64,000 nucleotides of DNA from Agroathelia rolfsii (Eukaryota > Basidiomycota > Agaricomycetes > Amylocorticiales > Amylocorticiaceae): assembly GCA_018343915.1 (NCBI GenBank), contig JABRWF010000004.1:372001-436000 (forward strand), read 5' to 3'. Every line of letters begins with the position of its first letter. Positions within the stretch are counted from its first letter, which is position 1. Positions 6,304 to 44,847 of the stretch are shown one piece after another. The notes beneath the pieces are model-generated. The model made no database searches and was not told the DNA's origin. It saw only the letters and a list, made by a program, of their open reading frames with translations. The translations under genes were made by a program, and so were the position numbers.

Positions 6304-8157
6304 ATGGATAGATTATCGATTGCGTATGGCTTTCTTGGTCTTATTCGAGTCATGTGCTGAAATGGCTGGCAAGCATGGTCACCGACTTTTTCCATCCAAA
6401 TGTAGGGGGAGTAGAAAATCATGTGTATATGTTGAGTGCAAATCTCATCCGACGGGGTCATAAGGCATCGCATCGTCATATCCTTGGGTGTCTGGCGTAT
6501 CTGACACCGCCAGTATTAGGTCATTGTTATAACCCATAGCCACCCACCCGACCGAGTAGGTGTTCGGTGGATCCTTCCTTCTCTGAAGGTGTATTACATA
6601 CCTTTCAAGACACTGGTCTCTTCGGCTACCTTGCCCAATTTCTTCACCTCTTTACCCTACCTCAGGACAATCATACTGCGAGAGCATATCACCCTCATTC
6701 ATGCTCATGCAAGCTTGTCGTCTATGGGCCATGAAGGCGTTCTACATGCTCATCTTTTCGGTGTACGTACGGTATTTACTGATCACAGTCTATTTGGTTT
6801 CGAAGATGCAGCCAGCATCTTGACCAATAAATTACTAGCTGGTATGCTCAGGAATGTAGATGCGGTTATCTGTGTCTCTCACACAGGGTATTTTGCTCAT
6901 CATACTTTCATCAACACTGTTGTTGAACTATAAGATATACAGCCGAGAAAACACTGTTCTTCGCGGGCAACTTTTCGAGAAGACAAAGCCAGGTGGCCCC
7001 TCTGTGGTGAATTCAAATGTTTATGTGATTCCAAATGCACTTGTTGCAGGCCAATTCACACCTGCATCAAGAGAACTACGAACTAAAACCGATACAAGTT
7101 CGCAGCTCATTTCATCAGTGTTTGTGTATGAACTGAATGTTTGAAACCAGTCACCATTATTGTGCTTTCACGGCTAGTTTATCGAAAAGGCATAGATCTC
7201 CTTGTGGCTACGGTACCTCGAATCTGCGCCATGTTTCCCCAGGTTCGATTCCTCATTGGTTTGTAGTCATTCAAATTGCTATTCGCGGAGTTCTCCTCAT
7301 CTAAAGTATCTTAGGTGGTGATGGACCAAAACTAATTGAACTGCTCCAAATGCGAGAAAAGCACCTGTTACAGGATCGCGTCGAGTTGTTGGGCCCCGTA
7401 AAGCACGAGGACGTGAGAAACGTGAGTGGCATAATATCATTCTCCCCCACCGATAGTTGACGGAGTGGACAGGTGCTTGTACAAGGTTCAATTTATATGA
7501 ACACTTCGTTAACAGAGTCCTTTGGTATCGCAATCTTGGAGGCGGCTTGTGCCGGTTTATATGTTGTATCTACCCGTGTTGGTGGCGTTCCCGAAATACT
7601 TCCCGAAGACATTGTCTCATTTGCTAATCCTGACGAAGATGGTAAGGCTCTAGTAAGTGGTATAAGTCTTATATTAACTTTGCGGCAGATGTAGTTCGGG
7701 CCATGTCAGAGGCCATCCAGCTTGTGTCCCGCGGAAAACACGATCCCCAGCGAGCGCATGACCGGGTTCGAGACTTTTACAACTGGGACAACGTTACCAC
7801 AAGGACGGAAAATGTTTATCACGCCGTACTAGTGTCTCGGCCGAAAGATCTTTGGACACGTATGGTCAGGTATGCTTTGTTGTTCTTTATTGTAATTCTT
7901 CTGACTTGACGCATATCAGGACAATGGACTTGGGACCGTTTGTTGGACCGATTTACACCATCATCCTAATTGTCGACTGTCTTTTCTTCTTGGTTCTAGA
8001 ATATTGGATGCCCAGAGAAGACATTGATTACGTAGAACAGCATTGGGATCAGGAGAAATTTGTTAATGCAAGTGTATTCATTCACCCTGTGAAGTATCTC
8101 ATCTTATTCACCGTATCTCAAGACTGTCAAGCTCAAGCAATGAGACAAATTGCATAA
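6304..8157 (+). CDS. GPI3: PIG-A/GPI3, GPI-anchor N-acetylglucosaminyltransferase catalytic subunit
   Basis: Nine exons give 478 aa (human PIGA 484): 6304-6323, 6374-6464, 6520-6887, 6943-7097, 7151-7258, 7315-7421, 7473-7641, 7689-7869, 7920-8157. The first coding exon is only 20 nt and yields MDRLSIA joined to [16 protein letters not shown], the family's N-terminus. The intron at 6465-6519 starts with GC (AAG|GCATCG) and has a CTGAC branch site. It is the only splice that keeps RRGHK next to VIVIT. The family-4 glycosyltransferase EX7E region lies in [14 protein letters not shown]-terminal hydrophobic segment ([20 protein letters not shown]) is the ER membrane anchor. The enzyme transfers GlcNAc to phosphatidylinositol, the first step of GPI-anchor synthesis. 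The last exon could instead contain another intron after FVNA, so the final 20 residues are less certain. Confidence 0.92.
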
Positions 8158-9542
8158 TCAATAAATTCTATTACAACACTATTTACAACTGCATAATACT
8201 ATAATCATAATCGTGGTCTTAGTCTATTGATATCTAGAGAGAAGAAATTAGCATGAAGTTGCAAAAAACAAGACAAAATTACAATGAATCAGCAAAGCCG
8301 TTGTTTTCTTGTTCCTCCAGACTCATACCCACAGAGTCGGAGTGTATGTACCAGGACGATATCTACACTCACTACCATGTCTGAAGACAGGGTGACTCAT
8401 GAAAGCACGAGGAGCCAAAGGCATTCAAAGAATGGATGAACTTGGTTTTCATCCTTGAACAGAAATTACAGTCAAAAAATATCACATACCAATTTACTAT
8501 ATCTTTCAAAAGTTTGTAGATAAATCGGAGAGAATCTAGCAATCCAGATAAGTAAAAGGGTATGGAACAGTTTTTTTTTCAAGAAAAACGGAGATCAGTG
8601 TAGAGTTTTTGGTAAGTTGTTGTCCACAAGAGATTGCTCTCTCTTCGGAAGCAGAACTGAATATTGTGTCATCATAGAAGGGAGGTATGGCAGGAAGGAG
8701 ATGTAATCAATAAAATATGGAAACTCACGCATGGAGACGTAGATGATGGATGCATAAGAACAACAGAGGCAGCAGATGAATCGAAGCGGAAAAATCGCAC
8801 AGCGGTATTCCAAATTATCCAATCTCCGCTTCCTACTCCGCTTCGGGATCGAATAAAAGAGACGCTGAAAGTTCCGTAACGTTCGATAGTCAACGAGGTG
8901 AGAATCTTTTTCAGTCGTACCTATTGATGATACTGTTCCATTCCTTGAGTTGGCGACGCTCTGCGATGAGCCGTACTCAAACATGCATCACCAACTGATC
9001 TTCATCATATTCTATATGAACATCTGAAGTTCTGACAACACGATACAGATTTTCAAGGCACCGTGAACAAGTTGCTCAAGACATGGACTATGAGATTATG
9101 GTAAGCCTCGTATACATCGTCTTTCGTTATCCTACGATGCTTTCAAAATATACAAGCATATGTCCGACATTCATGAAGGACAACTAGTCATGTCTGAGGA
9201 TCTGCTCTTCAGGCTCATTCGTTTTGGATTTTGCTGACTTGCCTTTCAGATGCTTATCCTCGTCAAATGTTTGAATGGTTGGAATAATGTAGAATGTTTA
9301 ATAGATCTGGTTAGTTGCATAGTCAAAGGCATCTATCGCCTACTATGGTATCTGCATATGGTAAACTTTAACAAATCAGGATCAGTAATTTTATTCTGTT
9401 TACACCGGTGGTCTTCATCAAACTGACTTGATCTACTATTTTATCTTTTGTTTGAATGCCCGAGTGGGAATCCTGTTCAAAGTACATCGACTGCAAAACA
9501 CCTTATTCATACTGCAAATATTTCTGAAATTTGACACATGAG
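8158..9542. other. Segment with a piece duplicated at 16.98-17.36 kb; coding status unclear
   Basis: From about 8900 to 9240 this segment is clearly homologous to 16,990-17,350. On the plus strand both copies read VPFxELATLCDEPYSNMH after a CTTTTTCAG acceptor-like motif. Further down both read YKHMSDIxEGQL and end in stop codons at the same aligned position (9236-9238, TGA; 17,345-17,347, TAA). The differences fall at wobble positions on either strand, so the strand is not settled. An open frame on the minus strand (8595-8984) is not conserved over its length. I cannot name a family. It may be the remains of, or a short exon set from, an accessory gene of the peptide locus. Confidence 0.35.
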
Positions 9543-10647
9543 TTACTGGTACAAGACTGGGAATTCGAGGTCGTCTTGGATGTGGATTGTCATGTTGAAG
9601 TCTTGCTTAGCATGATGATCCCGAGCCCATGCCCAGATATCATCAAAATTCCTGCACGTGTGTATTTCACCTACACTGTTGGTGTGGATTGACATCGTGG
9701 GGTCAGCAGCAATCTTATTGCAGCTTAAGAATACACACCTCATGTCCGCCGTACACATAAGGGACTGCCGGATTGAGTCGACACAATGGGATAGATGCTG
9801 GCCCCAGTTAATACGACCTACGCCCGCTACCCAGCCGGCGTAATCGTATGGCCAAGGATAATAGTCTCTATCTAGAGCCTGTCGCAAAAGGTCCAAACTA
9901 AGTAAATCTTGTCAGAATGGGCATGAGGTGTGAGACAATTGGAGTGGAATATACCAATGTAATTGGTGGAAAACATCTATTGCAATTATGTAGTAGCCAT
10001 CCACGTCACCGGGGATTGGCAGGGTCCTCTGTTGTCTAGGAATCAGCACTGGATCCATTTATAGTGAATAATCAAACGTACATTGGCCAGACGGCTCGCC
10101 GACTCTTTGGGTATTCGAGAATACCCATCTGAAAATTATTCATTCAAGTTGACAAGGAATAGACACGCATACGAATATCGATAATAAATACATTTTGTGA
10201 GATTATGCCAGGTTCGGTCAACACCTTTGGACGATGGCTGCGCATATATAGGCAAATCTGGACCTGGAAACCCGTCGTTAAATTTCTGGAGCTCGTAACG
10301 AACCACATCCTGAGCTGGAGCTGTGACGAAGTTAGCATGCATATCGTTATGAGATATCCAACCGCTGATTACTTACAGTATAACAGTTGTGGGAACGGCG
10401 AAGTAGAGTTTGTTTTACCCAAAAAACGCCAAAGGTAACCCAAGGAGACAAGAATAGCAATAGTTTGGATAGTTGCTATTGTGATAAGGAGTCTGCTATC
10501 TAGCGGATGATGCAGAATGGAGAGCCAATTCTCAGTTCCCCTAAGGACTTTGGTCTTCCATGAGCTACTAGCTTGATTAGCATCTTCGTTGGGATTGTAT
10601 GATTCCTGAGACCGCAAGAGCTGGTAGTCTCCGAGCTGCGTCCTCAT
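9543..10647 (-). CDS. UstYa-like (DUF3328) oxidase, copy 1 of type I
   Basis: Six exons: 10419-10647, 10192-10320, 10082-10128, 9955-10028, 9739-9897, 9543-9675, giving 256 aa. Exon 1 encodes a cytosolic tail and one membrane segment (LLITIATIQTIAILVSLGYLW). The UstYa core follows: PAQDVVRYELQKFNDGF, then YSRIPKESASRLAN, then FHQLHCLD (first HxxHC), HLSHCVDSIRQ (second HxxHC) and IHTCRNFDD near the end. UstYa-type proteins are heme-free oxidases that, in ustiloxin, phomopsin and asperipin pathways, cyclise tyrosine-containing core peptides; substrates here are inferred. An alternative first donor at 10376 would lengthen exon 1 by 42 nt, but the aligned donor at 10418 also works in the paralogue at 17.5-18.6 kb, so I prefer it. 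Confidence 0.87.
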
Positions 10648-11668
10648 GTTTGAGGGGGGCTCACGTCGAAAGGATCCTACTAGCGGCAGCATTGACGAAT
10701 AAGAATCAGAGCAACATGCGAAACGTTCTAGCCAGATCCCCAAATCTAAGGCAGACATCATCACGATTCTCATTAGACAACAACTGTTGGCATGATATCA
10801 AATACTAGGGGTAGCACCATCGGGAATACTCAAGGCCGCAATTTGAGTCACCGATAGAATGTTTGTATCAATCCCGCCTGACTTTTGAGACAACCCAGAT
10901 GCCCCTTGGCTGCACCGAATGACTAATTGATGACCGTATATCAATATATCAATGCCCGATGGTCCTTCTGACAGTGGCTGGTAGGACCGGTAAGGCCTCT
11001 GCCGGTGTCGGTTAAAACTGAATGTAATTGAATAGAAACCTTGGCTCAAAGCGCCCATTTCCATGTGGGACACCTTTGCGTGATGGTTGGCATAAACTGA
11101 ATGATCAATGTCGGAGTAATAGCAGGTTCAATGTCAATGTCAACATCAACGTCAGCGATCTTTTGAACCTTGGACTGGTCACTTGCATTGATTATTGACA
11201 ATACCGTGCCTGTGACCGGCGGCCGCAGCCTGAGGTTCTTTAAGTTGCTCGGAAAGGGGAAAAAAACCTCGCATGATATAGTATTTTCATTGCTGCACCA
11301 ATTCAGTTGATCAGGCCAGTAGATAAGTTGTTTATACGGTACTACTGTTCTATCAGCAACTTTACAATTTCAGCGCTTTTGCTTAGTCCCGGAGCCTGAC
11401 ATTTTTCGAGGATAAGGAAGAGGAACTAGGGACTCGGAGAAAGCTAAGCTATGAGCAGAGCACTGACACAGTGACACTGTGGCCGCCGGTGCCGGGCCGA
11501 CTCTCCGACCCGTAGTCGTGGTATAGCACACTACTGTGTAACATGCACTGGCACTACTAACACCCAACACTTACTGTGCTCGTGTTGCGAACCACATACA
11601 GATGCTACATAACAATGGTTCTTGAAGCTCAAAGCTTGTATTAACAACGCCGTTACGGTGATTACCAA
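10648..11668. other. Spacer between the two UstYa genes of block 1
   Basis: This region holds the promoter of the type I gene and the 3' end of the type II gene. It is partly alignable with 18.6-19.9 kb, as expected for a duplicated block. I see no gene; the one open frame of 91 codons (10798-11073, minus) lacks a conserved counterpart. Confidence 0.4.
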
Positions 11669-12647
11669 CTAGCCTGAGCTTGTATATGTTTGTACCTGCT
11701 CGAACTTCCTACATGTATGGGCTACCAAATAGCAAATCGAATTGGAATTGTGCCAACGCTGGGTTGGTTGTCATACTCACCTACATCCATGCGGATTGTT
11801 GCCTCATTAGCATCTGGTACCCATTGCCATACAATCTATTGTCTCAAAAGCGATTCAAAATCATTTTGAGGATATGCTAACAAAGAATCGGGCTTACAAC
11901 ACTGATATCTGCCATGCACATCAGACTCTGGCGCAGTATTTCGACACAATGTGTAAGACGAGTGTTGTTGGTATTCGTCGTCCCTCTGCCCTCTGTCTCG
12001 TTCAGATAGTACATATCGGTTTGGAGGTCTTGTCTTATGGTGTCCTAATACATTGCTTTTTAGTGGAGGCACCGGAATATGTCAGCTCATAGTTACCAGA
12101 CACTCCAGACTGTAAAGAACCGCTGGAGGGTGAGTGCTTTGCCCTTCATGGATCACATACTAGTAAGCCTCCTTGAAAAGTATACATAGTCCATAATTTC
12201 GCACAAGAGCTATTTACCTGAGTATAGGCTTTTCCAGGCATTATTTACTACATCTGAGTCTTTCTGTTGGTAGATGGGGGTATCTTCACCAAAGCCCCAG
12301 GAGAAAGTTCTGATTTCATAATCGACAGGGGGACCTTTGCGGTACATTCTATTAAATAGTGTCAATAGATTTGGTAAGTACTGGCTCTCACCTTTCAAGA
12401 CAAGTTGATTGGTAGGCCCTTGCCATACCCAGATATAGGCGAAGTATGCAGCAATACAAAGGAGGAGGACACTTTGGAGAGAGATGGCATAGTGAAGGAA
12501 GTCTCTCCTTATTCTGAATCCCATTCTTCCTAGAGCAGTTTGCTGTAATGGTTCTTCTACATTGATACTCAACCCTGCAACTTGAAGGTTGGGGTGAAGA
12601 AATGGTGCGCTTTCGATTTCCGAGTCTTGCCAGCGCTCTTCATGCAT
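11669..12647 (-). CDS. UstYa-like (DUF3328) oxidase, copy 1 of type II
   Basis: Six exons: 12392-12647, 12218-12334, 12097-12143, 11898-12044, 11781-11835, 11669-11721, giving 224 aa. An acidic tail leads into one membrane segment (AISLQSVLLLCIAAYFAYIW). The core begins GPPVDYEIRTFSWGFGEDTP and continues AWKSLYS. The first metal-type motif reads LYSLECLDTIRQ in place of HxxHCLD, the second RLTHCVEILRQSLMC in place of HxxHC, then MDVAHTCRKF. The gene first looks broken, with a TGA and a frameshift near 12,080-12,050, but a 52-nt GT-AG intron at 12045-12096 removes both and restores CLDTIRQ. I chose the MHEE start at 12647 because it is conserved in the paralogue; an in-frame ATG also exists at 12680. 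It probably acts with the adjacent type I oxidase. Confidence 0.82.
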
Positions 12648-14013
12648 ATCGGAGTGCGAAGATATGATGATGCTGCCCATGTATCGCGGTTAGTATCAGA
12701 GCAAACCTATAGCACTACTAGCCTGCACTAGTTTACGTTAGCGCGAAAAGGGAAAAAAAATCAACTGTCAATTGAACTATGACTCGGAGTCCATCGTATC
12801 CGGGAGTGTATACATGTGGATGGCTGAGTAAAATGATGGTATATTACCGGCAATGAGGGAGTCCAGGACCGCAGCAAGTAGTGACACATACCTGCCAAAC
12901 ATAGGCTATCAGTAGGGGATAAGTTGAATTATCAAGCTATCAGGTACTATTGCATCTTTCTCCTTAGGTGGACTTTAGAGTACTGGGTATGCTACCATAG
13001 TTTAGTCGGAACATATCGTGGGAGTGAAATTTCAATAGAGCCTCGTGATCACGATACTGATAGGGTAAGTTAATTCATACCCCACATCATGATAACCAGC
13101 GACGCTCGCAGTCCCAATTCAAACCAGGTCGGTCAGGTCCATCATGTCACGATTACATACCTAACCTGAATAGAAGGAATATCAGTAAATTTTCACTTGT
13201 TCCAACACCCCCCTCCCCGGGATACCCTCGGACGCATGAAAGTCATTGTGGAATCGTAACAATATAGACTCGGGTGAATGGCTGGCTAGTGGAGATTTTT
13301 TTCAGCCTTTAGGTTACTAATATCAACCCACGCCTGCTGATACGTAGTGGCCTTTGATAAAGATATACTTCCAGTCTGATTGAGGAAACGGAATTCAAAT
13401 ACGGGTAAAAATTCACGTTCTTTCTTCAAGCCTGACTCTGAGAGCGCCGATACCACAAAAGTTGCAACTTACATAAGTTATAAGATGATAGGGCGGCCCA
13501 GCCTCTTGTTTGCATAGATGATATATAATGCCCCTGAGCAACTACTAGAAGATCATTCCATCATTTCTTTAAGTTATCGTTGAATTGAATACCAAATCAA
13601 CTTGAAGCCCGTTATCCCGATATCCCGATATCCGTGCTTTCGTCAGCGGCTGTTGCTAATATTGGGTGGTTTAGGCGGCCAAGTCCTGCCAGTGGACTGC
13701 CTACGCAAGACTAGTATTACACACGACATGACTAGACAGGCCATGATATCACCAGCAGAATGAGCACATGATATCAATTATATACCTTTCGGGGATAACC
13801 ATCCTGGTAATGTTATCTACAAGGGCACTTACACAAATACTAACCGGCTATATGGAAACAGCGAAATTAGATATAAAAAATTAGAATATTTACTGAACCT
13901 CTACTATATAAGCAGGTGTTTCATCTGAAGGGAGACATCAGCTCCTAAGCCGTTGTTTGGTCAATTCGCACTCACATACCACCTATCTTTATCCATTCAC
14001 ATCCATTGGAACG
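12648..14013. other. Intergenic: promoters of the type II UstYa gene and precursor peptide gene 1
   Basis: The divergent upstream regions of the oxidase (minus) and peptide gene 1 (plus) lie here. A TATATAA motif at about 13906 is 108 bp before the peptide ATG. No gene is evident. Confidence 0.45.
13906..13912 (+). promoter_or_regulatory. TATA box of precursor peptide gene 1
   Basis: A TATATAA motif lies 102 bp before the start codon of the small secreted-peptide gene. Comparable AT-rich boxes precede the other two peptide genes (TATAAAAA near 15,862; TTATAA near 22,156). This suggests strong, regulated expression, unlike the TATA-less housekeeping genes nearby. Confidence 0.5.
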
Positions 14014-14203
14014 ATGAAGCTCTACATGACAATCCTTTTTGGGCTTTTGGCTAGTGCCATGGCGCTTCCCCAGCCTGAATCAGTTCAACGCGTGAGTCTT
14101 GGACTCCTTTAAGGTCATATATCATATTTGACTTTGCAAACAGAGAGAGGAGTCGGTGGTCACCGACGAGGATTGGTATGTGGAATTTGGATACAAAAGG
14201 TAA
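14014..14203 (+). CDS. Secreted precursor peptide 1 (putative RiPP precursor, single core)
   Basis: Two exons (14014-14091, 14144-14203) give 45 aa. Exon 1 is a signal peptide of MKLYMTILFGLLASAMA type followed by LPQPES and an Arg. Exon 2 starts Arg-Glu-Glu, so an Arg-Arg pair forms at the exon junction. It runs through an acidic spacer to a core-like WYVEFGY and ends exactly at Lys-Arg before the stop. The same signal peptide and exon split recur in the genes at 15.9 and 22.2 kb. The core holds two Tyr and one Trp, the kind of residues UstYa enzymes crosslink in known dikaritins. The product and its activity are unknown. The intron is GT-AG, 52 nt. No homologue is recognised by name. Confidence 0.75.
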
Positions 14204-15937
14204 AGGCGTGTAGTCGGGTGATCTTGAAGTCATCTAATCTATGATCATTGTGACTAGTTGAACTTGAAGTATCTGTGAAGCCTGGGACGTGGTCGATTCT
14301 TGGGATGTATATTTTTTAGGACTGAAACATGAAGTAGCCCGAATTAACATTAACTTGCGAATTTGTGATTGATTTTTTTTATTGAATGCCTCTAAATTGC
14401 ATTTACTAGTCTTTCTGTACTAGATCATAAGCGCATAAAAGGACAAGAGTGATAGAATAAAATCTGAGTAATTATAGCGATAGCAGATTGATCTACCAAC
14501 GGGTCAAAATAATGTTGGCGATTTTTGAACCTTCCATTGTCAATTTGATTGACGAACAAATAAATACACTAAACTCGCGTGATGGACGTAGTATTAGTAG
14601 TGTTCAAACATCCCGCTTCAGGGTCACTTCAACTGCCGCTTCAGGTCTCCCTTCAGTGAAATCTGGCGCGTCTTGAACGACCTGCTTCCCTCCGAGTCAA
14701 CTGTAGATATCATTTCAATACCAGTGGTCATGCAAGCTATTGTACTAGACTTTTGTACTTAAATACCTATAAACCTCATCCTTCCATCATGCCTACACAA
14801 TTGAAAGATTCAAAACCCAATGCGCTTGCATAAAAAATTGGTCTTTGACTACTTATCCTATTGCAGATGCCACTATCATGCCAGTGGAAGAATCGACAAC
14901 TTCAAAGTTCTACTGTAGGCAAAATTTTGCTGTCTTTTGGGTTAGTAATATTCTCTGCAGGGTTAATACTGTTTAATTTTTTTTCTTTGGTGGTATAATA
15001 GTGTCATACGGAAAAAAAAATGGCTAAGAGCTAGATGTGTAGATAGATGGGCCCCCATTTAACTATGCACAATTGCAATCGACAAATCCCACGATTTCAC
15101 GTGATTCCAGCGCGAAGTAGGGTAGGTAACTAAAGCGGGAGGGGCCGAAGCGAGCGGCATCTGAAGTGGGCTCTAAAGTCACAGGTTTGAACGCTACTAA
15201 TATACTGGAGCACCTGGAAAAGACGGGAAATTGTCCACAGAAGGACAACAGTATGCAATGCTATGCCTCTTGATGCCTGAGTGCGTCAAGGTTATATATA
15301 TATATATATATATCACGCAAGCTTGTATTTTCAAGTATATGGGAGACAAGAACCACTAGCGCGAGCATAGGTGACGATTCTAGAAGGGCAGATGTTGCTC
15401 TAGCGCTAGCAAGCATTCAGAACCAAGGTTTCCTGGATGACTGCTAGTGTCACATCTACGACACTGCGAGTCGCTATCTCCATGATCAATAAAATAATGA
15501 ATCAAAATAATTGAAGCAGGTACAAGATTACAACTCAGATTTTTGGGTTGACATATCCTTATCTTTAGGCCTATGCCGATGCCATCAGTGATTGCACCTG
15601 AGATGTGATCATAAGACGTGTTTAGTAATTAAGTAGGAAGTCATGCGTAACTCGGATCATTCACTTCAAGTTCTTGGAAAACAAGACCACCTCCAAACCT
15701 GTCCATGAATGATGAATGATGACTCATGATATCTACAAATTACGCAAGCCTTTCATGATGTTAGGGTAAGTTGCTGTGTACCTGATAAACACTCGGTCTT
15801 GTTAATCAAAAATCACAATTGGCGTCTCGAGATATAACAAACATGCTTTGAGCCCGAAAATCTATAAAAACCATCTCAGACTTCGGGAAAAAAGGCTAGT
15901 CAACAATCCTCAATCCGACATACCCAAGACGAACAAC
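14204..15937. other. Intergenic between precursor genes 1 and 2; contains a (TA)n microsatellite
   Basis: No gene is supported. A (TA)n run lies at about 15293-15313. A 61-codon minus-strand frame at 15063-15248 has no recognisable feature. The last 100 bp hold the promoter of peptide gene 2, with TATAAAAA near 15862. Confidence 0.45.
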
Positions 15938-16141
15938 ATGAAGTTTTACATGGCAGTTCTGTTTGGCCTTTTCGCCAGCGCCATCGCACGACCCCAACCA
16001 GAGTCCCTACCCGTAAGTTTTCCATTCAGATTCATATAGTAAGATAATAATGGGTCCATTAAATTATGTTAGAGGGAAGACGCAGAAGAAGATAGCTTCC
16101 CAATCAGTGTTGGCATACTCTTTGATTATCCGTATCAATGA
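15938..16141 (+). CDS. Secreted precursor peptide 2 (putative RiPP precursor, C-terminal core)
   Basis: Two exons (15938-16012, 16073-16141) give 47 aa. Exon 1 encodes MKFYMAVLFGLFASAIA then RPQPESLP, clearly homologous to peptides 1 and 3. Exon 2 begins Arg-Glu-Asp, passes an acidic spacer and ends in a hydrophobic, aromatic stretch (SVGILFDYPYQ) at the stop codon. Unlike peptides 1 and 3 it has only one Arg at the exon junction and no terminal Lys-Arg, so processing must differ or the gene may be decaying. The intron is GT-AG, 60 nt. It sits between the two duplicated UstYa blocks. Whether it is a substrate of those oxidases is inference. Confidence 0.7.
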
Positions 16142-17488
16142 AGGTGAGACCCAGCTGTATGATATCTAAAGTAGTCCAGCAGAAGTCCTTACGCAGGAAC
16201 ACGTTTTGCAGTTTGAAAGAAACCCTTTGTGGAAAGTGAATCTAGCAATACGACAAGCTGTAATGATTTTCTAGACACATATCATGTAAACAACCACAGT
16301 TGAAATGCATAACAGCATGTTTAATTTAAAGCGCCTTGAGATGAGAATTATTATTATTGTAGGTATTATGATCTTGATTGTACTAAGAAACATGTAACCT
16401 TACCAGTCGGTTGTACGCGTGAGTACCATTAGTAGTAATAGCAGTTGTTACTAGTATCCAGAAATAACAACACTATCTTGAGCCTATGAGGGACCCCAGC
16501 AGAGAAAATTATAGCACTAAAAAATAAGCACTACACTTAGCTGAGCATGCAACTACAACTAGCAAAGCTACGAGTTTTGCCAGACAACTGCAAGTTGTGT
16601 CGCCGAATCCGATTCCGAGATCACCAAGCGGCTGGACAGGCCAGGAGCATCAGGTTTCAGATTCCGCTCTGCGAAGTTTGCCCGCACAGCTCGGCTACTG
16701 CACAGTTTGCGGCTTGTTCTTCGACAGTTAGGAGCATAGCGCATACAGTCAGCGTTGAGTTGTGCTCGACCCACCCACCTACCCTAGTGGGTACAATAGC
16801 GCAGCTGGTTAAGGGGGGTATCGAGATACCTTCTCGACGCTACATACCTTCTCGCCTGCAGCTCGAGCGGTGCCTACCGGCTACACCGGCAGCACCTCTC
16901 CACCCTTAACCTGTCTTCTGCCTCCCTTGCCGTCGCAGCGCCGGCCTGACCTACTGTTATCAGATGGTCTGCAAGCCTTGCTTGTATGTGTTATCAGTTT
17001 CGTGCGTGAATCTTTTTCAGTCACAACTGTTGATGATACTGTTCCATTCGTTGAGTTAGCGACGCTTTGCGATGAGCCGTACTCAAACATGCATGACCAC
17101 TTCATTTTCATATTCTATGTAAACATCCCAAGTTCTGGAAAAACTCAGCACAGATCTCCTAGCCCCTGCAAACAAATAATTGACTTGGAAGATATGGGCT
17201 ATTAGATTGAGGTAAGTCTTCTATTCATCATTTTCCATCGTCCTATGATGCTTTTCAAAATACAAGCATATGTCCGACATTCGTGAAGGACAATTATTTC
17301 TGTCCGGAGATCAACTTTTCGAGCCTATTCATTTCGGATTTCGCTAACCCGCCTTTCAGATGCCTATACTTTTTAAATGTTAAACATTAGGGTTTGAATA
17401 AGTGGGATAACGTAGAAGGTCTGACTAGCTGCATAACCAAATAGCTCTCACATACTATACTGTAAATACTTGAAATATGAAACATGAG
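16142..17488. other. Intergenic with a tRNA A-box-like motif and the second copy of the conserved short segment
   Basis: A motif matching the tRNA A box (TAGCGCAGCTGG, 16797-16808) lies in a GC-rich patch unlike its surroundings, perhaps a SINE remnant. From about 16,990 to 17,350 lies the second copy of the segment at 8.9-9.24 kb, with the shared ELATLCDEPYSNMH and YKHMSDI plus-strand readings. No complete gene can be built. Confidence 0.35.
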
Positions 17489-18605
17489 CTACTGGTACAA
17501 GATAGGAAACTCAAGGTCGTCCTGGATATGGATCGTCATGTTGAAGTCTCGTTTAGCATCATTATCTCGAGCCCATGCCCAGATATCATCAAAATTCCTG
17601 CAAGTGTGCATTTCACCTACACTATTAATGTGAATCAACACAGTGGTGTCAGCAGTAATCTCATTGCAGCTTAAGAAGAATATACACACCTCATGTCCGC
17701 CGTACACATAATGGACTGACGAATTGAGTCGACACAATGGGATAGGTGTTGTCCCCAGTCAATGTGGCCTGCACCGGCTACCCAGCCAACATAGTCATAT
17801 GGCCAAGGATAATAGTCTCTATCTAACCCCCGTCGCAAAAGATCCAAGCTGCCAATGAGTAAATCTAGTCAGAATGAGCATCAAGCTGAGATAATCAGGG
17901 TAGAATCTCACCAATGTAATTGGTGAAAGACATCTGCTCCAACCATGTAGTAGCCATCGGGGTCACCGGGAATCGGGAGGGTCCTCTGTTGTATGAGAAT
18001 TAGCGCTAAATATATGTTCAATGAGTTGTCAAACCTACATTGGGCAGACGGCTCGCCGATTCTTTGGGTATTCTCGAATATGCGTCTAAAAATGGTCGTC
18101 GAGCCTCAGAAGGAGCGGATATATACGAACAGCGAGACGATAAATACGTTTTGTGAGATTATGCCAGGCGTGATCAACTTCTTCAGACGATGGTTGCGCA
18201 TATATAGGTAAATTAGGTCCTGGAAACCCATCATTGAACTTCTGAAGCTCGTAGCGAATAACTTCTTGAGCTGGAGCTGTAACGATGTTAGGGCTGTATA
18301 TCATGAGATGCTTGAGCAATGGTTACTTGCAGTATAAGAGCTGTGGGAATGGTGAAGTAGAATCTATGACACGAAAAGCGCCAAAGATAGCCTAACAAGA
18401 CAAGTATGCCAATAGCTTGCAGAGTCGATATTATAGCAAGGAGTCTATTATCCAATGGCTGATATAGACTGGTGAGCCAAGTCAGAATCTTATGAAGAGT
18501 CCCACCAAAGTCTCGTATCCTCCATGAATTAGTGTCGTCGTTTACGTTATGTGGATCCTGAGATTGCAAGGGTTGATAATCTCTCACTGGCAGCCAGGTC
18601 CTCAT
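17489..18605 (-). CDS. UstYa-like (DUF3328) oxidase, copy 2 of type I
   Basis: Six exons with the same phases and nearly the same lengths as the 9.5 kb paralogue: 18371-18605, 18148-18276, 18039-18085, 17912-17985, 17690-17848, 17489-17621, giving 258 aa. There is one membrane segment (LLAIISTLQAIGILVLLGYLW). Core motifs are PAQEVIRYELQKFNDGF, YSRIPKESASRLPN, FHQLHCLD, HLSHCVDSIRQ and MHTCRNFDD, so both HxxHC motifs are intact. The first donor (GTCATA) is weak. It is chosen because it aligns with the donor in copy 1 and is the only one found that keeps the frame. If it is not used, the gene would be frameshifted. Its neighbour 1.3 kb upstream is the type II oxidase of the same block. Confidence 0.82.
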
Positions 18606-19883
18606 GCTTGACGATAGCTCGCGAAAGTTCGTCGAAAGAGTCTCACTGACGGCCGTTCAGTATCAAAGGCAGCAGTGACAAGCACAAATTGAAGTAATAT
18701 CCAAACTTTTTGGCTGGACCCCTGAGTCTGAATCAGACATCATTGCGTAAGACAATAGCTGCCAGTGTAGTACTTGCATGATCACATCAAATACCAGGGA
18801 CACTGGCGTTCTTGTGTTAAGGCCGCAAATTGACTCACTGATGAAATGGCATATGATGGCAGGCTCGGATATCACGTCAATCCTATCATGAGACGGTCTT
18901 GATACCCTCAAACTGCAATCCTATTTGAATAATTAGTTGATGTTTTTATCGCTTGTATATCAATGCCTTAGGATGCTACCTGTCTGTCAGTACCTGAGGC
19001 TGATAAAAACTCAGTCGCTTAAAGCTGAATGCTACTAGATAGAAATCTTCGCTTATAATGTCCACTAGAATCGTAGGGAGGATCTGGCGTAGCAGGGCCT
19101 AGAAATTACCTCGTGATGAAAGATGGCTGATATAAATGGTCGGAGTTACGGCAAGTTCAATGATGCCAGTGTACATATTGGGTTAAGTACAGCCAACGGT
19201 TTCTTGAACCTGGCTAATCATTTGAGCTTTGATTGATGCCAGTGGGGGAACGACTCACGGGTAGCTAATATATTCATTTTGTCGTTGATTGTGCGCTGTA
19301 CAGGCAATCTTCAATATCCCACTGGTGTAACCACAACTTGAGTTCTTCCTAGAAGTTGCGTTGGAGAGGAAAACAAGAACCTATTGTATTTGATTTGTAT
19401 CTTGTTTCTACGGCGCGAACTTATCAGATCAAGGGATACAATACTTTGATAGCACCCTATTTCTATCAGAAGCTCTAGAGCCGTAATGATTTTGTAACCT
19501 GAAATTTCGAAGGCAAGTGATTACAAAGGTACTCCGGAGCTCAGGCTAAGGACTTGGAGGAAAAATATTGACAGGAAGCTCATTGCCAGCGATTCGGAGC
19601 AATTAGGGCACTCCATCCGAGTCAGGCCGACTCCGAGTCTCTAAGTCAGAACAGTGACACTAACTTGAACGCTGGCATGCACCAACACCTAACGATATCT
19701 CACGGTCGTTGTGCTCAGACCGTACATTCCAGTGTGGTCAGTTTCAAGTTGCGACTGGTATAAACAGTCGCTACTAATAGTACATTGACAATGTGTTGCA
19801 CTCTCACTAGCACAATGTATTACTGCATTTTATACGAACGATACATTACGATAAAACCGTGAGTTGTATCAAGAACGCCGTAA
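18606..19883. other. Spacer between the two UstYa genes of block 2
   Basis: The counterpart of 10.65-11.67 kb, about 250 bp longer. It holds promoter and 3' UTR sequence; no gene is supported. Confidence 0.4.
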
Positions 19884-20840
19884 CTATTCTCGGGCTAAAT
19901 TCGCTAGAGTTTTTGCTTGATCAAACTTCCTACACGTGTGGGCTAATCCAATAATTAATCAAACCGGAATTGCGTCAATACTAGTATTTGTTCTTACACT
20001 CACCTACATCCATGCGTATCGTTGCTTCATTAGCCTCTGGTATCCATTGCCATACAATCTGGAGTCCCAAAAATCAAACCATCATCATCTTTAAAGATAA
20101 AGCAGCTTGCACTTACAACACTAATATCTGCCATGCACATCAAACTCTGACGCAACGTTTCGATACAATGTGTCAAGTAAGTGCTGTTATTCACCACACC
20201 CCTGCTTTCTGTCTTGTTTGGATGGTACATGTCTGTTCCTAGCTCCTGTCGGATAGCATCCTGACCATTGCTTTTTAGTAGATCCACCAGAAAATGAGGG
20301 TTTATAGTCACCAGACACTCTAGGTTGTGGAAGACTGCCGGAGTGTGGGTGCTTTGCTCTCCAGAGGCTGCTGATATTTTTTTTCTTGAAAATCATAGTC
20401 CATTGTTCTATACAACGTGAGCTACTTACTTGAATATAGACTTTTCCAGGCATTGTCTACTACCTCTGAACTTTTCTGTTGATAAACTGGCGTATCTTCA
20501 CCGAATCCCCAAGAGAAAGATCTAATTTCATAATCCACAGATGGACCTTTGTGACAAATTCTGTCAGACAATCTTAATGGATGCCGGTCAGTACTGGCTT
20601 GCCTTTCAAGAGAAGTTGGCTGGTGGATCCTCGAGATGCACGAACATAGGCGGCGTATGTAGCAATGCAGAGAAGAATGATGCATTGGAGAGAGACAATA
20701 TAATGAAGGGGATTTTTCTTTAGCCTAAATTCCAATTTTCCCAGAGCAGATTGTTGGGTAAAGTTAGAAGAGCTATTAGGAGGGAGGAATGGCGCGCTTT
20801 CAATCTCAGGCTCTGAGCCTTGCCAGCACTCTTCATGCAT
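19884..20840 (-). CDS. UstYa-like (DUF3328) oxidase, copy 2 of type II
   Basis: Six exons: 20603-20840, 20430-20546, 20312-20370, 20117-20260, 20004-20058, 19884-19942, giving 223 aa. The first intron (20547-20602) starts with GC (AAAG|GCAAGC) where the 12.4 kb paralogue has GTGAGA. Without this splice the frame ends at a TAA. Features: one membrane segment (IVSLQCIILLCIATYAAYV), then GPSVDYEIRSFSWGFGEDTP, FHNLECLDAIRQ (HxxEC instead of HxxHC), YLTHCIETLRQSLMC and MDVAHTCRKF. It forms a pair with the type I oxidase just downstream and lies 1.4 kb from the multi-core precursor gene, which is transcribed in the opposite direction. Confidence 0.82.
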
Positions 20841-22241
20841 GTCTGTGTGTATCAGCAGCTCAAGCGTGTGGACAGACATGAGGACATATCACTACTCATA
20901 CTAGTAGTATCGCAGCTATCAAAATGTTATCATTTGCCGCTCAGGAAGCATGAGCCGGCGCTGGTTCCTATGAATCCATCAGTTCCAGTGTGCGCGTGGA
21001 TAAATGAATTTAGACAATTGAATGATTTGATGGTGTATTCTCCGCAATCAGGGAATCCAGGTCCGCAACATGCCCTGATATATTTGCTAAACGTAGTTAT
21101 CAGTAGGCGATAAGTTGAATCATCAAACAAGCTAGGTACACATACTACGATCCATATTGTATCTTTTCCCTTTCGGTGAATTTCGGAGGCTTGGAGTGCC
21201 GATTACCAATGCAACGTTTTTTTTTTTTTTTGAATAGACCTCAGTCTTGTCTACGAAGATATGTACCTATCAGAACATGATAATTTTCATTGATTGCCCT
21301 GCGTCGTAACAGTTACAATCCCGGATCCCTATTGGCAAGAAAACATCCCACGATCCGCTACGTCTTACCATTGCATCAATGGTTTACGTGTTCATGGAAG
21401 ATAATGGGATGAAGTGCTTTCACAGCATCACAGTTTCTATCAGAAACGCTACAAGCCTAATACACAGGCCTTCGAATTCAGGCAGGTTTTGAAGATAGGG
21501 AGTTGAGAACATAGCCCCGAAGCAACACTCACTGGCAGGCTCGGTAACTGGGCTAATCAGGCCCGGGATTCAGGAGAGCACCATCACTTCGGGCCGGAGG
21601 CTGCTGAATATTAATTGTCGCAATCCAAGTACAGAGGTTACTGGTGACAACTCGGAGTTGAGTCAATTATCTTTAGTGCTTTCAAGAATTTGTTCAGGTT
21701 GCTCCCTGAAATGGCAATGGGAAATTTTGTTGTATGCTTAGTAAAATTTCCTTATCACAGTCGGATACAGAATATGTGTTGATAGATAGTTGTTATACGA
21801 AACAGCTTGAGTGCTTCAAGTTTACAATTCAATATCTTTGGTCTTGTCGTTCTAATGTCTATCAGAAAGCATGATAGATGGGACCTGTATCAAGGTCATG
21901 GGATCTATAGGATGCGAAGATGAGTAAAAGGCACAACGTGCGATCTTGAGTATTCTGTGCAATCTATCACTGTTTTCATCTTCTGATTTATAACATCATA
22001 CTGACCTGCAACTGAATTATCAAGCCCACAACATTGTTCGAGTCGATGCACATTACCCGAAGCCTTTATTTCTCCGTGAATGCCTCGGTCCAGCCAGTCG
22101 GAAACTCAGCCTCTCCTGTAGTAGTAAAATAACGATAGGCCAAACTTGAACGCCTTTATAAGTCATCTTCTCTGGCTTGAAATTTCCTAGCTCAGCCCCG
22201 CACTCCAACGCACCATCCTAAGTGCACAAACCTTAGGCATT
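20841..22241. other. Intergenic: divergent promoters of type II UstYa copy 2 and precursor peptide 3
   Basis: The equivalent of 12.65-14.01 kb in block 1, with patches still alignable (for example near 21,000-21,120 against 12,830-12,910). A TTATAA box lies near 22156. No gene is evident. Confidence 0.45.
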
Positions 22242-23294
22242 ATGAAGCTTTACATAGTAGCTCTTCTTGGACTTTTTGCTAGTGCTATGGCACTGCCCCA
22301 ACTCGAATCGCTTCGACGCGTAAGTTGTGAATTCTACCTACTGCACCGGTGAATTACTAGATTCTAAAATATTAATACTTATCCTGCTCAGAGAGAGGAT
22401 TTACAAGTGGCAGACGATGATACCAAGTATGGATATACCGTCACTGTTGAGAACAAAGCAAGTCTAGATTTTGCCTTTAGTAAGGAATGGGTGCAAGAAA
22501 ACTGATGCAATCCAAATTACCTAAAATTTAGAGAGAAGAATCAGAGACAGAAAGCGAAGACACCAAGTATGGGTACACTGTCACTGTTGAGAACAAGGCA
22601 AGTTTGGATTTTGCTTTTGGTAAGGAATGGGCGCAAGAAAACTGATGCAATCCAAACTACCTAAAATTTAGAGAGAAGAATTGGAGACAGAAAGCGAAGA
22701 CACCAAGTATGGATACACTGTCACTGTTGAGAACAAGGCAAGTTTGGATTTTGCTTTTGGTAAGGAATGGGCGCAAGAAAACTGATGCAATCCAAACTAC
22801 CTAAAATTTAGAGAGAAGAATTGGAGACAGAAAGCGAAGACACCAAGTATGGATACACTGTCACTGTTGAGAACAAGGCAAGTCTAGATTTTGCCTTTAG
22901 TAAGGAATGGGTGCAAGAAAACAAAACTGATACAATCCAAACTACCTGAAATTTAGAGAGAAGAATTAGAGACAGAAAGCGAAGACACCAAGTATGGATA
23001 CACTGTCACTGTTGAGAACAAGGCAAGTTTGGATTTTCCTTTTGGTAAGGAATGGGCCCAAGAAAATTGACGCAATCCAAATTACCTAAATTTTAGAGAG
23101 AAGAATTAGAGGCAGAAAGCGAAGATACCAAGTATGGATATACTGTCACTGTTGAAAATAAGGCAAGTATTAGGATTTACTCTCAGTAAAGGATGGAAGC
23201 GAAGAACTTGATGCAATTTCAATTTGTAGAGAGAAGAGCTGTGGTATTAGACAGTGATACCCAGTTTACATACACTGGACCTGTCGAAACTTGA
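22242..23294 (+). CDS. Secreted precursor peptide 3: multi-core RiPP precursor with one core per exon
   Basis: Exon 1 (22242-22319) encodes a signal peptide (MKLYIVALLGLFASAMA) ending in Arg-Arg. Six exons of exactly 66 nt follow: 22392-22457, 22532-22597, 22672-22737, 22812-22877, 22957-23022 and 23097-23162. Each encodes Arg-Glu-(Glu/Asp), an acidic spacer, the core-like YGYTVTV, and a final ENK. Joining them in phase 0 makes Lys-Arg at the junctions, a Kex2-type site. The introns that follow these exons begin GCAAGT, a consensus GC donor, and contain an in-frame stop. The terminal exon (23230-23294) reads in frame only if the last intron uses a GT donor four bases later (23167). With the GC donor, translation stops at 23250. 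Total about 164 or 180 aa. Adjacent UstYa pairs are the likely tailoring enzymes. Confidence 0.8.
22392..23162 (+). repeat. Six tandem units, 140-145 bp, each one exon plus one GC-AG intron
   Basis: Units start at 22392, 22532, 22672, 22812, 22957 and 23097. Four of the five steps are exactly 140 bp and one is 145 bp, because of an AAAAC-type insertion in the intron. Introns are as conserved as exons, including the GCAAGT donor and the AATTTAG acceptor. This points to recent unequal crossing-over or gene conversion of whole exon-intron units. Confidence 0.92.
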
Positions 23295-23965
23295 AGTTAA
23301 ATTTTTACTCGGTATGAATATAAATTATCATAGCGGAAGAGAGGGGGCTAATTAAACGCGTATCGTATTTGATAAACACGGCAGCTGTATCTACAAATTG
23401 AAAGATGCAATGATAGAGAGATAAATATACTATGTAATCATGAAACAACTCGCACATCAGCCTTCATTAATATCTGGAGATTGCTGTAGACTTAGTGAAA
23501 CGCTTGGACTCGTAAGTAGTCTTGCCAACGATGCTAGTGCTTATGGAGGCAAAATTCATGGATCCTAAAGTGCCCCGGCCAAGGGATAGCGTATTTAACC
23601 AACAAACCGCCAAATTCTAGAGACAATAATAGATAGAAAATTTTAACAAGCCGTGTTTGCAAGCAATACTGACTCGGAATGCATTGATAGCATTTTGTAG
23701 TAGTCATAGATGTTTATTAGTATCACGTACCTAACGAAGACAAAAAACTTATAGGTACGACAATCTGTAGCCATAGTATGTTGTTTGATAGTAAGTTCTG
23801 TCATATTTCCGCATTTTGACTTTTCTGATTGGAGATAGGATATGAGTCATCAGAGCCTCTGGCTTGATCAAAGATACTAGTAGTAGAGCTGATTCCAAAA
23901 GGGCTCGAAGTCCTTGAGCAAGCTGAAATGTAATCTAGGAAAGTTCTGCAAACTCGTCCGAAGGA
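23295..23965. other. Intergenic between precursor 3 and tRNA-Val
   Basis: AT-rich sequence containing the 3' UTR of the precursor gene. I see no coding or structured feature. Confidence 0.45.
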
Positions 23966-24067
23966 GGACTGATGGTGTAGTTGGTTATCACGTCCGTCTC
24001 ACATGATTGTAGTTTGGTGCGATTGAGTGATCACGGGAGGTCCCCAGTTCGAGCCTGGGTTAGTCCA
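23966..24067 (+). tRNA. tRNA-Val (CAC anticodon) with a short intron
   Basis: Acceptor strands GGACTGA and TTAGTCC pair with one G-T wobble. The A box (TGGTGTAGTTGG) and the B box (GGTTCGA-like, CAGTTCGAGCC) are in place. The anticodon stem TCCGT pairs with ACGGG across a 7-nt loop whose anticodon is CAC. About 28 nt of extra sequence after position 37 is the intron, at the position standard for nuclear tRNA genes. The T arm CCCAG/CTGGG is perfect. Confidence 0.85.
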
Positions 24068-24408
24068 TTATTTTTCTGCCCATTGGTTTTGATTTTTGAG
24101 TTTGCCGGACTAGTAATCACGTTCACGTTGGACTGGAGGTGACTTTCGAAATGTGAAGTGCATGGATCCAGCAGGGATGCTGCGAGGCCTGAGGTTGCCA
24201 GTGAGCGAATAGCTTGGACCCCGCTGTGCCGGATCGGAGGGGTGATACATAATTGGATCCAAGCCCAAGTCCTGCTGGATACAGCTGCACTACCATCATC
24301 TTCCTGCATCCCACCAGGGTTTGTTTCAAACCACGACTATCTCTTCTATACGACACCCCTTATAATAATTACTTTTACATACCCGTTCGAGCTAGCACTA
24401 CTATCACT
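24068..24408 (+). promoter_or_regulatory. 5' region of the oxysterol-binding protein gene
   Basis: No gene in this 340-bp stretch. The last part is pyrimidine-rich and carries TATAATAATTAC about 50 bp before the ATG, as expected for promoter and 5' UTR. Confidence 0.4.
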
Positions 24409-26296
24409 ATGGCCAGCACCTCCACGTCCAAGAACGACATCGATAATACAGCCCTCGACACCGAGGACGGCCCTGCGATATCAGTCCCCGACACCAGTGA
24501 TGCAGGCGAGGGCGGCAAGCTCAAGATGATCATACAGCTCGTCAAGAAATGCTTGGGTGTCAAGGACATTGCATCTATGTACGCGTACCCTTTTTTTTCT
24601 TGCCCCACCAAACGCTGACGTCGTGGACCCTCTCATTGCACAGGCGCCTTTCGCTCCCTGCTTCCCTGCTTGAGCCCATACCAAACCTCGAATATTGGCA
24701 TTATCTTGACAGACCAGACCTATTTGCTGCGTGAGCAACCAACCCTTTCGCTTTCGCTTGTGGATTCGACCGTTGATTATGTGCATCAGCATCAATGATT
24801 CAGATGATGAGCTTGAGCGCATGCTCGCCGTTTTGCGTTTCACGTTTACCAAGGACCTGAAGTTCATTGTGAGTATGGGGAGGCCTTCACGCTCGAAGGG
24901 CGTCGTCAATCTCATATTTTCCCGCAGCATGGCAAAGTGGTTAAGCCGTACAATTCTGTGCTTGGCGAAACATTCCGTTCCCACTGGGATGTTGTCCCCG
25001 TTTTGCACCCCGGCTCGGCGGACACACCTATCCCCATGATCTACACTTCCGAGCCCGCCCCGCCATCTCTGCCCCCGTCCGCAATCTCATCTGGCACGGC
25101 CGTTAATACTGCGGGGCTCGGCCCCTCAGATGCATCCAGCATCAAGAGCGGCAAGAGTGGAAAGAGCTCCAAATCTGCTCTTAGCGCCAGCGACCTCCGG
25201 AGTCCGTCCACCGCGGCGACTTCCTTGGTTGAATCCAACGTAGATGCCCAGATCAGCAACCTCAGCTTGGCAGATGACTCCGATGACGAAATGGACGCGA
25301 ATGTGCCGCGCCTGCGCGTGGTTTATTTGACGGAGCAAGTGTCCCATCATCCACCCATCTCGGCGTACTATGCCGCCTGCAGAAACAAACACATCGAGAT
25401 GTCTGGCATTGACCAGATCTCGGCCAAGGTGTCCGGCATGACCGTCCGTGTCGCGCCCGGCTCGTTCAACAAGGGCATCTACATCAAGCTAACCGGCGGC
25501 CCCGGGGAGGGAGAGAACTACAGGATCACGCATCCCATCGCGTCCGTGAATGGAATTCTCAAGGGTAGCTTTTACATTACAGTTGGGGACACGAGTATCA
25601 TTACGTGCAGTGGAGGCAAGCCTGGCGAGAAGCTGAGGGCAATAATTGAGTACAAGGAAGAAGTAAGCCCCCTTTTTTTCTCTGTCCATCAGCTTGGCGC
25701 ATGTAATTAATTGAATTGTATGGTGCTAGTCCTGGATTGGCAAGGCGCTCTTCCGCCTCGAGGGTTGCATTCACAAGTACACCGAGGGAGAGGCCGATGT
25801 GGAGAACTGGACAAAGATTAAACATGTCCCTCCCTCTCGCATCGTAGCCACCTTTGATGGTTCTTGGAGACACCTGATTCGTTGGAGACGCGCTGGTGCA
25901 CCTGTGGAAGAGTCGGAGACGTTGTTGGATCTTTCTACGCTTCGCGTCATCCCCAAGGTTGTTCGTCCCCTTGACAGGCAACAACCGCATGAAAGCAGGA
26001 AGCTCTGGGATAGTGTCACATCGCGCTTGCAGAAGAAGGAGTATAACGAGGCGACGAAGCACAAGCTCGCTATCGAGCAGAGACAAAGAGACGAAGCGGC
26101 AGAGCGCAAGAGGAAGAATGTCGAGTAAGTGATCCCACCTCTGTCCTCAAGAATTGATATTTATCTGCATACCAAAAGATTCGTTCCCAAATTTTTCGAT
26201 CGCGATATTGACTCGGGCATCCCGACATTGACACCAGCGGGCTTGGCTGCCTTTGAGGAAGAACTTAAAGAAAGCTCTACATACCCTCTGTTATAG
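24409..26296 (+). CDS. Oxysterol-binding protein (OSBP-related protein, short form)
   Basis: Six GT-AG exons: 24409-24578, 24644-24730, 24790-24868, 24928-25662, 25730-26124, 26179-26296 (527 aa). The lipid-binding domain fills the protein, with no PH domain or ankyrin repeats, as in yeast Osh4-6 types. The lid/core start is MRLSLPASLLEPIPNLEYWHYL and is followed by KPYNSVLGETFRSHW. The OSBP fingerprint EQVSHHPPISAYYA is at about residue 230. A Ser-rich low-complexity insert interrupts the domain between VVPVLHPG and LRVVYLTEQ. Members exchange sterol or phosphatidylserine for PI4P at membrane contact sites. The gene is not linked functionally to its neighbours. Confidence 0.93.
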
Positions 26297-35983: not shown

Positions 35984-35988
35984 ATATA

Positions 35989-38590: not shown

Positions 38591-38601
38591 TTACCCCCTC
38601 C

Positions 38602-42105: not shown

Positions 42106-42131
42106 TTTATTTTGTACAAATTGGTCAGTAG

Positions 42132-43125: not shown

Positions 43126-43144
43126 GCCGCATACTCTGACCGAT

Positions 43145-44845: not shown

Positions 44846-44847
44846 AA

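Follow-up and report, generated by a model that had tools for sequence, protein, structure and literature searches.

In the basidiomycete Agroathelia rolfsii, a stretch of 64,000 nucleotides (the window, C4:372001-436000 in a 37.67-Mb genome of eight contigs) probably harbours a locus for ribosomally synthesised and post-translationally modified peptides (RiPPs) that depends on oxidases of the UstYa family. As far as can be judged from the DNA, such loci would be built of blocks, each consisting of a UstYa gene with intact motifs (type A), a degenerate UstYa gene (type B) and one or more divergently transcribed genes for secreted precursors, and the product would be a crosslinked peptide. A UstYa-dependent RiPP locus had already been proposed in a preliminary description of this DNA. 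That proposal is strengthened by the conservation of the blocks and by a further precursor gene (pepX) predicted by the block rule, while two points weaken it: peptide 2 lacks Kex2-type sites, and of the four UstYa-like oxidases described as intact, two (B2 and B4) are degenerate and one (A3) is frame-broken. Nor is a basidiomycete system new as such, since neighbouring genes for Kex2-processed repeat proteins (KEPs) and DUF3328 proteins were already known computationally (PMC7329392); what is new here are the exon-encoded cores and the pairing of an intact with a degenerate UstYa protein.

Blocks of UstYa and precursor genes

The genes of the locus follow each other in the order A1, B2, pep1, pep2, A3, B4 and pep3. 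A profile search assigns four genes in the window to PF11807 (UstYa/DUF3328), all on the minus strand, with the peptide genes on the plus strand, and the whole falls into two blocks, A1-B2-pep1-pep2 (block 1) and A3-B4-pep3 (block 2). The extent given for the locus in the preliminary description fits, and its three small genes with a common signal-peptide exon, interleaved with the UstYa genes, were confirmed at 14014-14203, 15938-16141 and 22242-23250 (plus strand).

Both blocks have mirrored counterparts on contig C5. That of block 1 (pep2' and pep1' leftward, B2' and A1' rightward) lies at 3870-3877 kb and that of block 2 (pep3' leftward, B4' and A3' rightward) at 3945-3952 kb. An extra enzyme pair on C5, Bx and Ax (both rightward, 3939-3944 kb), was at first without a known peptide gene. 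From the block order, a minus-strand peptide gene was therefore expected just left of Bx; this expectation was written down before pepX was found there.

Similarity between the two contigs extends beyond the blocks, as window positions 1-10665 match C5:3961-3951 kb (87-91%) and positions 23965-27931 match C5:3932-3928 kb (87%), both mirrored, and two more C4/C5 pairs and one C2/C8 pair behave likewise (85-90% for the longest alignments). We take C4 and C5, on these matches, to be homeologous or haplotype copies. The assembly seems to contain two haplotypes or subgenomes, as would be the case in a hybrid or in a dikaryon with diverged nuclei; C6 and C7 are perhaps paired as well, going by similar search-match patterns only. 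Synonymous divergence (dS) between C4 and C5 counterparts is 0.25-0.35 for enzymes and peptides alike, and C5 blocks 1 and 2 can be compared with the window blocks much as orthologs would be. Blocks 1, 2 and X differ from one another by a dS of about 0.8-2.0. These three blocks would have separated at older dates and, by this measure, constitute independent evidence that A, B and peptide genes travel together. The inner order of each block is the same on C4 and C5, though block 1 sits elsewhere on C5, displaced by tens of kilobases; block X was found only on C5.

The association also holds across the genome. Peptide searches with pep3, pepX, pep1 and pep2 as queries (E<=10, only the best candidates scored) found seven genes, all seven beside UstYa genes; peptide homologues away from UstYa genes, which the preliminary description had put forward as counter-evidence, were not found in this genome. 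With B4 as query, five B-type genes were found, 5/5 in blocks with an adjoining peptide gene, and the other matches were weaker and to other UstYa genes. In total PF11807 has 36 exon-level matches in the whole genome. A crude signal-peptide scan of 19 stretches covering the UstYa matches outside the window gave 31 rows, four of which were taken as precursors, three of them from the present family (pep1', pep2' and pep3') and one, on C3, a single-exon KEP from a different family (pepX lies outside the scanned stretches). This separate KEP (C3:5318347-5318948) has the signal exon MKPSFFTFVLLGLFAGLASAIPMPEPI and, within a single further exon, roughly a dozen repeats of the [DE]DLDITLKQPYKR type, and lies about 2 kb from a UstYa gene (C3:5315638-5316485, minus strand) with HQLHC as the one motif read. 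By its layout it forms, with this UstYa gene, a dikaritin-like pair of the classic kind elsewhere in this genome.

Precursors with one core per exon

All seven peptide genes share a signal-type exon (recognised by crude hydropathy and the AxA rule only), and in pep1, pep2 and pep3 it is joined by a phase-0 splice to an exon starting with Arg. Gene pep1 (14014..14203, plus strand; exons 14014-14091 and 14144-14203 around a 52-nt GTGAGT/CAG intron) encodes a single-core precursor, MKLYMTILFGLLASAMALPQPESVQR on the first exon and REESVVTDEDWYVEFGYKR on the second. It has an Arg-Arg pair across the exon junction and a Lys-Arg pair at its end, and thus one core bounded by dibasic sites, as does its C5 copy pep1'. 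For pep2 (15938..16141, plus strand; exons 15938-16012 and 16073-16141; C5 copy pep2') the two exons encode MKFYMAVLFGLFASAIARPQPESLP and REDAEEDSFPISVGILFDYPYQ. Neither pep1 nor pep2, nor their C5 copies, are repeat proteins. The ratio of nonsynonymous to synonymous divergence (dN/dS) is 0.31 for pep1 and 0.33 for pep2.

The third gene, described at first as a third small peptide, is actually a multicore array with one core on each exon. In the preferred model, which uses GC-AG introns, pep3 (22242..23250, plus strand) encodes a precursor of 164 amino acids on eight exons: the signal exon (22242-22319), six phase-0 core exons of 66 nt each (22392-22457, 22532-22597, 22672-22737, 22812-22877, 22957-23022 and 23097-23162; all of REELETESEDTKYGYTVTVENK type, with variants) and a terminal exon (23230-23250) encoding REELWY and a stop. 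DNA of this gene consists of 5.4 copies of a 140-bp tandem unit. The six inter-core introns (within 22458..23229) are 67-79 nt long and all have GC donors, AA[AG]/GCAAGT, the slash marking the exon end. In this model the last residue of each exon is Lys and the following exon opens with Arg, so that splicing makes a Kex2-type site at each junction. The dibasic sites reported around the cores of peptides 1 and 3 are thus borne out for peptide 1, and for peptide 3 in the preferred splice model.

The same layout is found in pepX (C5:3935595, minus strand), where MKLSMTVIFCLLTSVMALPQPKSLQVEK precedes six core exons of 69 nt each (RDESETDGTDISAFAYGGRAIEK type) and a terminal RDNA and stop. Five 58-nt GT-AG introns separate the core exons, with Lys-Arg at each junction and no need for GC donors; its six cores are other ones than those of pep3 and have a single Tyr. 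Preferred models give six cores between dibasic sites in pep3, three in pep3' and six in pepX. The difference in core number (six versus three), together with the finding of block X on C5 only, suggests fast turnover. Over the seven peptide genes these models contain 22 exon junctions, all in phase 0, and 20 of them join a dibasic pair, the other two being those of pep2 and pep2'. A GC donor is needed at eight junctions (six in pep3, two in pep3'); 12 of the other 14 are dibasic.

Whether the GC donors of pep3 are used bears directly on its processing. All six pep3 units also hold a GT donor 22-23 nt downstream, and an acceptor 2-7 nt past the usual AG keeps the frame. If pep3 on C4 were spliced there, each exon would still carry one core but would be longer, with ASLDFAF-type tails and no Lys-Arg, and there would be no Kex2 cutting between cores. 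Such GT-AG splicing is in frame in 6/6 pep3 units, and its introns (46-64 nt) come closer to those of the remaining peptide genes in length than do the GC-model introns of 67-79 nt; unit 1 of pep3' likewise has an in-frame GT-AG alternative without a dibasic site, with the donor at 17 nt and in another phase. Against it, a GT[AG]A alternative is missing from unit 2 of pep3', and in unit 3 the very position of the GC donor is occupied by GTAAGT (the two other pep3' junctions need a GC donor). The donor offset in unit 1 is 22 in pep3 versus 17 in pep3', with a different phase, and between pep3 and pep3' the intron units show 1, 5, 6 or 10 gapped positions, such indels being expected of an intron. 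Finally, pepX builds the same Lys-Arg junctions with GT-AG introns. It is because of the pep3' donors, the indels and the layout of pepX that the GC-AG model is preferred; we infer from them that the GC donors of pep3 are used, and consider splicing at the downstream GT donors rather improbable. By either model pep3 has one core per exon. Within the array the exons are no more similar to each other than the introns, as in any young tandem array, and dN/dS for four chosen pep3 exons is 0.29. GC donors also occur in intron 1 of A3 and B4 where the C5 copies have GT, as is the case for pep3 unit 6, and they seem to have built up in the A3-B4-pep3 block on C4. A literature search on GC-AG introns returned nothing on this subject, by title.

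The cores share some features. At least one Tyr is kept in pep1-, pep2- and pep3-type cores of both the C4 and the C5 copies. ED stands directly before WYV in 2/2 pep1-type cores and directly before TK[YF]GY in 8/9 pep3-type cores. Eight Pfam matches to pep3 were all under their cut-offs, and a search of its precursor against 5.8 billion proteins found none of 8000 scored candidates at E<=10.

These peptides could be ordinary linear Kex2-processed secreted signals or effectors, with the adjoining UstYa proteins acting on other substrates. Peptides derived from KEPs that were detected in Coprinopsis cinerea and other agaricomycetes by peptidomics in 2022 were linear with little modification, and STE13 motifs were present in some (PMC9769878); moreover, DUF3328 genes lie within 15 genes of only 103 of 1680 basidiomycete KEPs (6.1%), versus 1647 of 5372 in Ascomycota (Umemura 2020, PMC7329392). 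Furthermore, neither pep2 nor pep2' contains any dibasic site. Linear signals of this kind nevertheless seem improbable, in view of the position of all peptide genes beside A/B UstYa genes and of all B genes beside a peptide gene, of the inner block order kept in spite of the displacement of block 1, and of the residues that follow the cut sites, which are EE, ED, DE, DN or DD and never an XA or XP (STE13) dipeptide. A sexual pheromone was ruled out on the lack of a STE13 motif and of a CaaX-like end (read by eye).

Each peptide gene in the window is preceded by what is presumed to be a TATA box, the sequences being read directly and the role proposed: TATATAAG at 13905..13912 (plus strand), some 110 nt ahead of the pep1 start codon, CTATAAAA at 15862-15869 (plus strand) before pep2 and TTTATAAG at 22155-22162 (plus strand) before pep3.

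Intact and degenerate UstYa proteins

Splice models of the enzymes were built on splice-site conservation among the five A-type and five B-type genes. A1 (9543..10647, minus strand; exons 10377-10647, 10192-10320, 10082-10128, 9955-10028, 9739-9897 and 9543-9675) encodes a PF11807 protein of 270 amino acids with HQLHC (in the spliced form), HLSHC and a hydrophobic stretch resembling a transmembrane segment. A3 (17489..18605, minus strand) has HQLHC and HLSHC, a frame broken in exon 1 and a GC donor in intron 1; the HxxHC motifs previously noted in the type I copies are thus present in both type A genes. B2 (11669..12647, minus strand; a six-exon model of 224 amino acids) has YSLEC and RLTHC in place of the HxxHC motifs, B4 (19884..20840, minus strand; a model of 222 amino acids, with a GC donor in intron 1) has HNLEC and YLTHC, and Bx on C5 has DSLKC and YLTHC. 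The PF11807 profile, with its cut-off at 25, gives 153.8 bits for spliced A1 and 91 bits for B4 in an earlier model of 219 amino acids, which differs from the later one in the exon-3 acceptor.

Both HxxHC motifs (HQLHC and HLSHC) are found in A1, A3, A1', A3' and Ax, and not in B2, B4, B2', B4' and Bx. In a conservation set of 48 UstYa homologues, out of 123 proteins found, both His and the Cys of motif 1 and the last His and the Cys of motif 2 are invariant; the leading His of motif 2 reaches at least 90% conservation. In all five B types motif 1 is without its second His and motif 2 without its first, and B2, B2' and Bx are additionally without the first His of motif 1.

Loss of residues that the 48 homologues keep without exception or almost so is what would be expected if the B genes were decaying, functionless UstYa pseudogenes, and by alignment the B proteins are also shorter ahead of motif 1 and at the C terminus. 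Yet none of the five B models has an inner stop (for Bx, in the part resolved), every B gene adjoins a peptide gene, and dN/dS (method NG86) is 0.17-0.26 in 10/10 pairs, compared with 0.08-0.15 in 6/6 pairs of A genes (A3 left out). On these ratios the B proteins are, as it appears, under purifying selection despite their missing motif His residues; pseudogenes were set aside on dN/dS and are a very remote prospect.

In phylogenetic analyses the A proteins form one clade (100/99) and the B proteins another (100/100), with a weak A-B sister relation (81/55). The best named relatives of A1 are from Mycena, Panus, Cristinia and Cerrena (39-44% identity; top match 45%), and B4 matches covering more than a quarter of the query reach 35% identity. 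Going by its named UstYa relatives, this well-supported candidate RiPP system probably has an agaricomycete affinity. NCBIfam returned nothing for A1, B4 or pep1, and no UstYa relative was found among solved structures, where the best match (E 0.053) was an antibody domain.

Predicted products and related systems

The precursor would enter the secretory path and lose its signal peptide. A host kexin would then cut at the dibasic sites. Splicing itself creates most of these, by joining a core exon that starts with Arg to an exon ending in Lys or Arg; the genome contains two kexin-like loci with S8 (PF00082) and P_proprotein (PF01483) domains, on C6 and C7. Trimming of the Kex1 type would leave cores of about 16-21 residues, such as EESVVTDEDWYVEFGY, EELETESEDTKYGYTVTVEN and DESETDGTDISAFAYGGRAIE, for which linear [M+H]+ values of 1966.823, 2336.030 and 2203.963 were calculated. 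The A protein, with B as a non-catalytic or substrate-presenting partner, may then oxidatively modify the aromatic C-terminal half, and we infer that this modification is most likely a side-chain crosslink involving Tyr. More tentatively, and with some way to go before we would call it probable, these genes could represent a splice-built RiPP class, with symmetric core exons, protease sites formed only across junctions and an obligate pair of intact UstYa and conserved pseudo-oxidase.

The degenerate B partner has no characterised counterpart that is known to us, which we count in favour of another possibility, that within the same RiPP system A and B oxidise the cores in some other way, such as hydroxylation or chlorination, rather than crosslinking Tyr. 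The single Tyr of the pepX cores points the same way. DUF3328 proteins hydroxylate and chlorinate in cyclochlorotine clusters (PMC12048977), and crosslinking is therefore not implied by membership of the family. On the other hand, Tyr is kept in the cores of the other three types on both contigs, and the ED...KR frame recalls UstA, whose cores are flanked by ED and KR (PMC6514808). We regard these other oxidations as unlikely, and crosslinking of Tyr remains the preferred reading.

Besides the lack of dibasic sites in pep2 and the GT donors of pep3, several observations weigh against a RiPP locus with crosslinked products. ED precedes none of the six pepX cores. As a caution on INDEPENDENCE, C5 blocks 1 and 2 appear to be the counterparts of the window blocks and not independent clusters, and the tree of the A proteins conflicts with that of the B proteins over whether block 2 is the nearest relative of block X. 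In the block of pep3, it is the type A gene, A3, whose frame is broken, after the hydrophobic stretch, A1, A1' and A3' being open; exons 2-6 of A3 have a dN/dS of 0.14 with A3', and the break is therefore either recent or an assembly error. No match was found to an S41 peptidase in the genome, to a P450 in the window or the C5 loci, or to a tyrosinase anywhere, the last search having no working positive control. In the ustiloxin pathway the first cyclic intermediate is not formed unless UstYa, UstYb and the tyrosinase UstQ are all present; the asperipin-2a cluster, by contrast, is reported to consist of four genes with neither tyrosinase nor peptidase (PMC6514808), and their non-detection here is therefore not decisive.

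A Pfam search of 27 window open reading frames (ORFs) outside the locus named UNC-50, PIG-A, an oxysterol-binding protein, an M20 peptidase and a Ty3/gypsy-type element; the remaining ORFs had no Pfam match above cut-off, in a search that could miss an intron-split tailoring gene. The Ty3/gypsy-type element (38602-43960, minus strand) encodes gag, protease, reverse transcriptase, RNase H and an integrase with a chromodomain. It is bracketed by direct repeats of at least 300 nt at 35988 and 47389 (35988-47688 overall) that are 100% identical, and its insertion is therefore recent. An inner 300-nt direct repeat (37604-37903 and 44847-45146) is 99% identical; possibly the inner repeats are the true long terminal repeats and the outer pair comes from another insertion. 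Tandem units of 129 bp (92% matches) at 63536-63999 code on the minus strand for near-identical repeats, presumably of a WD40-like family in an NLR/HET-type setting.

As is the case for the dikaritins (ustiloxin with UstA, the phomopsins, asperipin-2a with AprA/AprY), the A. rolfsii blocks combine a putatively secreted precursor with KR-bounded Tyr cores and adjoining UstYa-family oxidases, and they share with ustiloxin the presence of two UstYa-type proteins, which are needed together there (PMC6514808). They differ from dikaritins in having each core on its own exon, in that one UstYa of the pair is without the double HxxHC, in the single cores of pep1 and pep2, in the basidiomycete host and in being known from genes alone, and from the ustiloxin/phomopsin type in the absence of S41, P450 or tyrosinase matches nearby. 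A review places dikaritins under ascomycete RiPPs (PMC9233826), and no characterised basidiomycete UstYa product was found in the open-licence PMC literature searched.

In basidiomycetes, KEPs are also reported by a survey of 250 fungal secretomes (PMC6339444), and Pleurotus has 16 UstYa-like genes, six of them developmentally expressed (PMC8893723). The KEPs of Umemura 2020 have a signal peptide, repeats, Kex2 sites and neighbouring UstYa-family genes, a description that pep3, pep3' and pepX fit after splicing in the preferred models; exon-per-core genes and degenerate partners, however, are not described in the portion of that paper used here, where the word 'intron' does not occur (PMC7329392). 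Like those of C. cinerea and other agaricomycetes, the A. rolfsii genes would encode secreted Kex2-processed peptides, but the main text of the C. cinerea study does not contain the term 'UstY' (PMC9769878). Double HXXHC has been proposed as the mark of RiPP-related DUF3328 proteins (PMC12048977). The same source reports two clans of lichen DUF3328 clusters without a recognisable repeat precursor, which its authors would explain by a precursor with only one core or one encoded away from the cluster; these resemble the present blocks in their two UstY genes (Clan R1) and elusive precursor but are from lichen-forming Lecanoromycetes.

Single-core genes and intron-split arrays probably escape repeat searches of predicted proteins, and no paper combining core peptide, exon and Kex2 was found in the open-licence PMC literature. 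Cores on separate exons, some possibly behind GC-AG introns, would be hard to see for mining based on predicted proteins or single-frame repeats, and this layout could partly explain why some UstYa clusters seem to lack a precursor, as a further escape route beside those proposed for the lichen clusters. Conservation of five UstYa-like proteins that lack the supposed active-site motif opens the division of labour in UstYa pairs to direct testing. An exon-per-core layout is also a simple way to change a peptide library through exon duplication. If the splice-built class is real, exon duplication or skipping would alter the number and mix of cores with the frame intact, and the choice between competing donors could turn cut sites on or off.

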